Below are positions 8,201-11,912 of a DNA stretch of 45,964 nt, in pieces. The translations under genes were made by a program, and so were the position numbers. The DNA comes from an uncultured Fidelibacterota bacterium. GTDB lineage: Bacteria > Fidelibacterota > Marinisomatia > Marinisomatales > Marinisomataceae. Under the pieces are notes generated by a model. It worked only from the letters and a program-made list of their open reading frames with translations. It did not search any database and was not told the DNA's origin. The stretch lies in NCBI GenBank assembly GCA_902624575.1, contig CACNXV010000004.1:1-45964 (forward strand), written 5' to 3'. The first letter of the stretch is position 1. Every line of letters starts with the position of its first letter.

Positions 8201-8397
8201 TAAATGATAATATACAGATAGTTATCAATTCTCCTGAAGGACCGCAGTCTAGATTCGATGAAGAAGCTATTGGTAAAACATCTGTTATGAAAAATATATT
8301 AACAATTACAACTATTGCAGGTGCAAAAGCAGCTATAGATTCAATGAAGTTTCTTAATCAAGTAAACGTAAAGGCTCTTCAAGAATATTTTGAATGA
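5203..8397 (+). CDS. carB: Carbamoyl-phosphate synthase large subunit
   Basis: 1064 aa with two duplicated ATP-grasp halves ([38 protein letters not shown]) and an MGS-like C-terminus. Start overlaps the carA end. Confidence 0.98.
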
Positions 8398-11217: not shown

Positions 11218-11243
11218 TTTATGAACTATTTTTAAAAATATTG

Positions 11244-11315
11244 TACCCCCGGAAGGACTCGAACCTACAACCAAGGGCTTAAAAGGCCCCTGCTCTACCA
11301 TTGAGCTACGGAGGC
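11244..11315 (-). tRNA. tRNA-Lys (anticodon TTT)
   Basis: Reverse strand GCCTCCGTAGCTCAATGGTAGAGCAGGGGCCTTTTAAGCCCTTGGTTGTAGGTTCGAGTCCTTCCGGGGGTA folds as a cloverleaf. Anticodon loop CTTTTAA, TTCGAGT T-loop; CCA not encoded. Confidence 0.93.
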
Positions 11316-11334: not shown

Positions 11335-11439
11335 ACTCACGAAAATTTAATTTAATACTCTAAAAAAAGCATTTTTAAAATTTTTTTTTTAAAAAAAGCA
11401 TAAAAATATTGACCAATTATAAAAATTTATATTACTTTG

Positions 11440-11521
11440 GATGAGTCTAAAATTAGATTATTGTAAGCAAATACAAGCAAATCGAAAAGGCTCTGGGGTT
11501 GGCGCTGCAGAGCCTTTTTTG
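11440..11521 (+). ncRNA. Candidate orphan small RNA (about 75-80 nt) ending in an intrinsic terminator
   Basis: TTGACC (11409-11414) and TTACTTTG (11432-11439) promoter-like motif; direct repeat AAGCAAAT x2; terminator hairpin and T6 at 11485-11520; no upstream + strand gene between here and carB. Confidence 0.4.
11485..11520 (+). terminator. Intrinsic terminator (AAAAGGCTCTG-12nt-CAGAGCCTTTTTT)
   Basis: 11-bp perfect stem (11485-11495 / 11508-11518) followed by T-tract. Roughly symmetric, so it may also act on the minus strand. Confidence 0.75.
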
Positions 11522-11561
11522 TTTATAGAATTTGTTGTATCTTCTCTAATATTTGAAAATT

Positions 11562-11905
11562 GGGGGCGACCGGTTTCGACATTTTAGAATGAAATCTTAG
11601 GTTGCATGTAGAGCTTAGTAACTCTTTAAACTTCTTACCTGTATTAAGTGCCGATAATGGCCAAATGGCTTTCGCTTAATTGCTAAAGTCCATCACCAGT
11701 AGACGTTTCTCATCGTTCGCTGATTGATGTCATAAAAATGAGATAGCTTATTTTTCTGCTTCGGTTAAATGAGCGAAATTTAGAAGATTGCTATGTATCT
11801 GTTTGTTCTTGTACAGCTGCTTAGTGAAACTCGATCAAGATACTAAACATGTAGATATCTATTATTCCACTATTTTGGACGGGAGTTCGAATCTCCCCGC
11901 CTCCA
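11562..11905 (+). ncRNA. ssrA: Transfer-messenger RNA (tmRNA), one-piece
   Basis: 5' GGGGGCGACCGGTTTCGAC and 3' GGGAGTTCGAATCTCCCCGCCTCCA form the tRNA-like domain. 7-bp acceptor pairing GGGGGCG/CGCCTCC. Internal tag ORF GCC GAT AAT GGC CAA ATG GCT TTC GCT TAA at 11650-11679. Confidence 0.95.
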
Positions 11906-11912
11906 CTTAATA

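Follow-up and report, generated by a model that had tools for sequence, protein, structure and literature searches.

CsrB and RsmZ RNAs titrate a protein through a repeated short GGA motif and end in an intrinsic terminator. 6S RNA is one long bubbled hairpin, and the 6S-Flavo family (RF01685, 108 positions) is a small structured RNA gene. The small RNAs reported from Bacteroides and Flavobacteria (e.g. GibS of B. thetaiotaomicron; PMC7366714) are stand-alone genes with TAnnTTTG-type promoters, and the Bacteroides promoter consensus is TTTG (-33)/TAnnTTTG (-7) (PMC7366714). The locus described here is likewise a predicted stand-alone unit with a promoter of this type, and it shares with the GibS-type RNAs a size of about 80-130 nt and a lineage without recognisable Hfq. 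Unlike them it is fixed beside the tmRNA gene and carried by phages, and no sequence relation between the two is known. With 6S-Flavo it shares a similar length, and with CsrB/RsmZ a short motif repeated in unpaired or loop positions and an intrinsic terminator; the motif is however UUGGC rather than GGA, and it occurs in two copies only and not in all families.

The window (the whole stretch of DNA that was analysed, 45,964 nt) is from a member of Marinimicrobia (SAR406), a phylum that is abundant in the ocean and has hardly any cultivated members, and the genomes of its genus are 0.4-1.0 Mb in size. No RNA specific to SAR406 has been described in Rfam or in the literature searched. A small RNA here would offer a compact and testable way into post-transcriptional control in the absence of Hfq, and also into the capture of host regulatory RNAs by phages. 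An earlier note made from the sequence had proposed a candidate sRNA with its own promoter and terminator between tRNA-Lys and tmRNA, and comparison of the promoter, helices, linker and terminator across genomes supports this prediction. The feature is almost certainly a real small-RNA gene. We give a probability of roughly 0.45 to the full reading, i.e. a small-RNA gene of an order-wide family that phages have picked up and that acts in trans, independently of Hfq, by pairing with mRNAs. The transcription unit (11409-11521, plus strand) and its surroundings are as follows (all positions are window coordinates; f1 is our label for the family of the window, and f3-f11 likewise label other families).

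11243-11315, minus strand: tRNA-Lys
11409-11414, plus strand: -33 element TTGACC, with TTG(C/A) locked in position across the order
11432-11439, plus strand: -7 element TTACTTTG, TAnnTTTG type with one mismatch
11444-11459, plus strand: 5' hairpin AGUCUA-AAAU-UAGAUU in the computed fold, shortened relative to the 5' hairpin seen in the other families
11460-11483, plus strand: single-stranded A-rich linker containing GCAAAUA (other families have UUGGCAAGUGAAA here)
11484-11519, plus strand: terminator hairpin GAAAAGGCUCUG...CAGAGCCUUUUU, 12 pairs in the fold, with compensatory changes in the genus and the order
11497-11506, plus strand: apical terminator loop GGUUGGCGCU
11515-11520, plus strand: U-tail of the intrinsic terminator (six T)
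11532-11555, plus strand: separate tmRNA promoter (TTG...TATTTG), conserved in the genus
11562-11906, plus strand: tmRNA (ssrA) with tag ADNGQMAFA, identified by an Rfam match, the constant downstream neighbour

The two promoter boxes are separated by 20 nt, exactly as the earlier note had read them, including the single mismatch to TAnnTTTG; its distance of about 45 nt upstream of the stem holds for the -7 box, not for the -33 box TTGACC. Since a match to the consensus is weak evidence taken alone, the case for a real promoter lies in the conservation of the boxes: sequence identity within the genus reaches 91% in the -33 box and 79% in the -7 box, compared with about 70% in the flanking and intervening spacer, and TTG(C/A) is found at -32/-33 from the start of the RNA model in about 63 of 68 copies from the order. 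The consensus itself comes from Bacteroides, and from this conservation we infer that it is also used in the SAR406 phylum. Transcription would be expected to start near 11444-11447, and the layout from promoter to terminator predicts an RNA of about 77 nt (11445-11521), in line with the 75-80 nt foreseen before, consisting of a short hairpin, a single-stranded linker and an intrinsic terminator. An 82-nt segment from 11441 folds at -27.1 kcal/mol (z = -3.8), and none of 200 shuffled sequences folds as well, so that the hairpin and its six T stand up as the strong orphan terminator that had been claimed. There is indeed no plus-strand gene between carB, which ends at 8397, and this terminator, as gcvP and tRNA-Lys are minus-strand genes. 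A 48-aa ORF (11441-11587) was considered as a gene and rejected, because linker indels of 1-2 nt break its frame between sister species. We also considered that the hairpin might terminate minus-strand transcription only, the case against itself that the note had named; three findings exclude this: the promoter points along the plus strand, 84 of 87 host copies have a U-rich tail on that strand (at least 5 T of 8), and phages carry copies, as described below. We infer from these elements that the small RNA is transcribed.

Conservation in sister genomes, which the note had proposed as a check, is extensive. A DNA search recovered a 201-nt stretch over most of its length, with the whole unit, in 18 of the 24 genomes searched from the genus. 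Identity within the genus is 70% in the spacer before the promoter, 70% in the gap between the promoter boxes, 72% in the first 20 nt of the RNA, 93% in the linker, 88-96% in the terminator arms, 97% in the loop, 78% in the spacer after the terminator and 92% in the 5' end of tmRNA. The predicted RNA is thus conserved to the same degree as tmRNA, and the neighbouring spacers less; conservation outside the terminator is clear from the linker, which matches the tmRNA 5' end. The stems vary by compensatory changes while the loop GGUUGGCGCU stays unchanged: the terminator stem GGCUCUG/CAGAGCC becomes GACUCUG/CAGAGUC in L016 and GGUUCCG/CGGAGCC in L017, and the 5' stem AGUCU/AGAUU becomes AGUCU/AGACU in L017/L018. 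Two loci (L019 of G003 and L225 of G118) retain tRNA-Lys and tmRNA but have lost the small RNA in between, which shows that some genomes can do without it.

Beyond the genus, 88 of the order's 130 genomes match a pattern for the terminator loop, and 2 match a reversed control pattern. Thirty sequences from other families, none of them from the genus of the window, were used to build a covariance model, R1. R1 also matches 88 of the 130 genomes, with one copy per genome in 10 families, and finds the RNA of the window at E = 3.6e-5. In the remaining phylum, R1 found the small RNA in none of 115 genomes, and a filter-off scan of 20 tmRNA-upstream stretches from other orders found none either. Counterparts in f3 and f5 were recognised by eye upstream of tmRNA (promoter, 5' hairpin and GUUGG(C/U)A(A/G)GUG), with a terminator hairpin that differs. 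Outside the genus of the window the RNA is longer, with a 5' hairpin containing an internal loop, then UUGGCAAGUGAAA, an optional hairpin and the terminator, and the linker has diverged in f7 and in the genus of the window. Outside the genus the most conserved element is the terminator loop, which hardly varies from GGUUGGCG(C/U)U: UUGGC is identical in all 68 aligned copies while the stem of the loop varies. The copy in f11 (loop UUUUGGCGAU) was found by the model and missed by the loop pattern, so the true loop core is UUGGCG. Pattern matches in Alphaproteobacteria, Fermentibacteria and others were dismissed as chance, the model matching there the hairpin alone.

Covariation supports the structure. 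In the 68-copy alignment 88.3% of cells are paired (34-64% when slid), and double-sided changes are seen in 131 cells, compared with 44 +/- 8 after shuffling. The structure guided this alignment, but 30 sequences aligned with MAFFT without structural information give the same picture (51 vs 20). The structure is conserved beyond the terminator, with two-sided changes in 5' helices 1 and 2 above shuffles and slides. The unit hence has the features of a stand-alone sRNA as far as they can be read from sequence: a predicted promoter of its own, an intrinsic terminator and structure beyond the terminator.

Comparison with Rfam, another check proposed earlier, gave only tRNA-Lys and tmRNA in the window at the gathering score, with nothing credible below it. 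With Rfam 15, searches of 12 loci, of 6 loci (E up to 1) and of the phage loci returned only tRNA, tmRNA and chance matches. The impression that the RNA belongs to no recognisable family was therefore right, as no Rfam family matches it; a literature search, with most subscription journals outside it, found no paper on it. At the Rfam thresholds used, the putative RNA is most fittingly placed in a new family of its own. We weighed the idea that it is a divergent 6S RNA, because near-threshold 6S matches occur only in f4, f5 and f8, where the model finds no small RNA. This apparent mutual exclusion is broken by f5, which holds both a 6S candidate and a small-RNA counterpart. The small RNA has two hairpins and a linker, is too short for 6S (as the note had judged) and has no long bubbled hairpin, and neither RF00013 nor RF01685 matches it, RF00013 having matches only elsewhere in G026, G027 and G030; a 6S identity is highly improbable. 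6S-Flavo was found in none of 61 genomes, which is weak for absence elsewhere as the control genomes also gave no match. The 6S candidates themselves (L212, L213 and L214, in G030, G026 and G027 of f8, f4 and f5, respectively) score 38-45 bits (cut-off: 46.4), and that of G030 adjoins an hflX-like GTPase gene. We also note that SRP RNA (RF00169) was recovered from 12 of 15 genomes of other families but from none of the 24 genomes of the genus, where it is either lost or too diverged.

The neighbourhood is constant on one side only. For every copy found by both the pattern and the model and with tmRNA on the contig, tmRNA (RF00023) lies 50-240 nt downstream on the same strand, whereas the genes upstream of the RNA vary widely and are drawn from many gene families; downstream of tmRNA there is often argS or a MarC-like gene (named by reading). 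The constant place of the small RNA before tmRNA, in the same orientation, and its terminator would also suit a cis-acting leader (attenuator or riboswitch) whose terminator sets read-through into ssrA. We consider this very unlikely: tmRNA keeps its own promoter and differs from its neighbour in its separate promoter and predicted separate transcript, a similar TTTTTGA-like box precedes tmRNA in most of the 20 stretches from other orders, all without the small RNA, the spacer varies from 50 to 240 nt, and antiterminator pairing was not seen by eye. Phages, moreover, carry the small RNA without tmRNA; neither an ssrA lacking another promoter nor an obligatory link of the RNA to ssrA was thus observed.

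Antisense regulation of tmRNA, with the loop pairing to the tag start UGCCGAUU, has some appeal: the loop is able to mask the first codons of the tag, and 8-10 pairs (including G-U) are possible in many species. When tmRNAs were swapped between species, however, own pairs were no better: the linker gave -10.99 kcal/mol with its own tmRNA vs -10.94 and -10.90 with those of other species, and the loop -12.21 vs -12.20 and -12.34. Nor, in f7, do the C/U base of the loop and tmRNA covary. We therefore set these striking single duplexes aside, and an antisense role is scarcely credible. As a side observation, four near-complete f8 genomes (G030, G042, G049 and G060) have no full-length tmRNA match, nor a match to the permuted tmRNA model, and sister genera (G055, G061 and G062) do have a full-length match.

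Action in trans is favoured because phage copies occur far from tmRNA, because tmRNA has its own promoter, and because the small RNA has a stand-alone promoter and terminator. The 5' hairpin would protect the 5' end, the linker and terminator loop would present UUGGC-containing sequence, and this sequence may pair with target mRNAs in trans without Hfq. Hfq was found in none of 46 genomes (controls positive), which leaves the locus outside the Hfq-dependent sRNAs. Base pairing with mRNAs, rather than protein binding, is our first choice for the mode of action because both main conserved elements are unpaired. A k-mer search for targets near start codons in three genomes gave no strong signal and no specific mRNA target. 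CCAACC, the complement of GGUUGG, occurs there 11 times vs about 4 expected and ranks top of 15 permutations, a weak and small signal (about 1.1 Mb of the three genomes, crude gene caller) that would suit chance.

Protein binding ranks close behind base pairing. In this possible alternative the RNA would be a sequestering or scaffold RNA of the CsrB kind, in which a protein recognises the linker and the UUGGC loop and the phage copy captures that protein. Primary sequence is conserved in two unpaired elements, GGUUGGC occurs twice (linker and loop) in most families, and the phage copy retains exactly linker and loop and drops the inner part of the 5' hairpin; the doubling of GGUUGGC is lost, however, in f7 (linker GGAUGACA) and in the genus of the window. 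Conservation over at least 25 nt exceeds a usual seed and would fit protein binding equally. A wider and more doubtful interpretation is that a lineage RNA tied to tmRNA acts on the core gene-expression machinery (ribosome, RNA-binding protein or RNase), and that phages use a trimmed linker and loop copy to seize it.

A further reading is a minigene, in which GAGG, 7 nt, GUG or AUG and a stop after 2-3 codons would act as a ribosome-binding decoy or a translated leader. RTG is found at the same place of the alignment in 54 of 68 copies, often with an immediate stop (VKK*, MN*), and AUG AAA AAG UGA is kept in some phage copies. Against this, the genus of the window and several f9 species lack the start codon, copies differ in frame and length, and the SD-like GAGG is paired within the 5' hairpin, all of which makes this reading unlikely.

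Among viral sequences, at least 5 contigs of a phage clade carry the small RNA (E = 9e-14 to 1e-6), which suggests that the RNA has a function of its own. Three viral contigs with the strict loop pattern were all confirmed (E = 9e-14, 3e-10 and 2e-9), a fourth copy was found via the linker pattern and a fifth via a search for the neighbouring gene (E = 1e-6); a sixth contig (L448) has a degenerate form seen by eye. tmRNA is absent from the stretches of the first three contigs, and annotated phage records contain no match. Different members encode a RusA-like resolvase, a DnaB-like helicase/primase, a Mu Gam-like protein, a Sak4-like protein and an integrase, and the small RNA is always placed after the RusA-like resolvase gene and before a small ORF. 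The phage form is reduced to a short 5' hairpin, the linker and the loop hairpin, with the inner part of the 5' hairpin lost, and its core reaches 96% identity with host copies (f9). With a start codon 15-25 nt after the RNA, and a weaker U-tail, a role in cis is possible in the phages.

For viral contigs found with a wide linker pattern, a rescan for loop and linker gave only the known phage copies among the matches listed. Two viral loci (L307, 4144-4224, and L309, 3451-3531) have the linker GGGGUGGCAAGUGAAAAAGUGUAC without the loop hairpin (E = 0.28) and may be chance matches or a further variant. In five phage loci (L189, L190, L191, L448 and L449) the gap after the resolvase gene that holds the RNA also contains another structured element, GGGAGCU...AGCUCCC, some 60-130 nt before the RNA; Rfam matches to it are absent in L189-L191. 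The element has inner arms and looks like a three-way junction. L189 and L191 have in addition an extra hairpin, GUAACCU/AGGUUAC, changing to CGACCU/AGGUCG.
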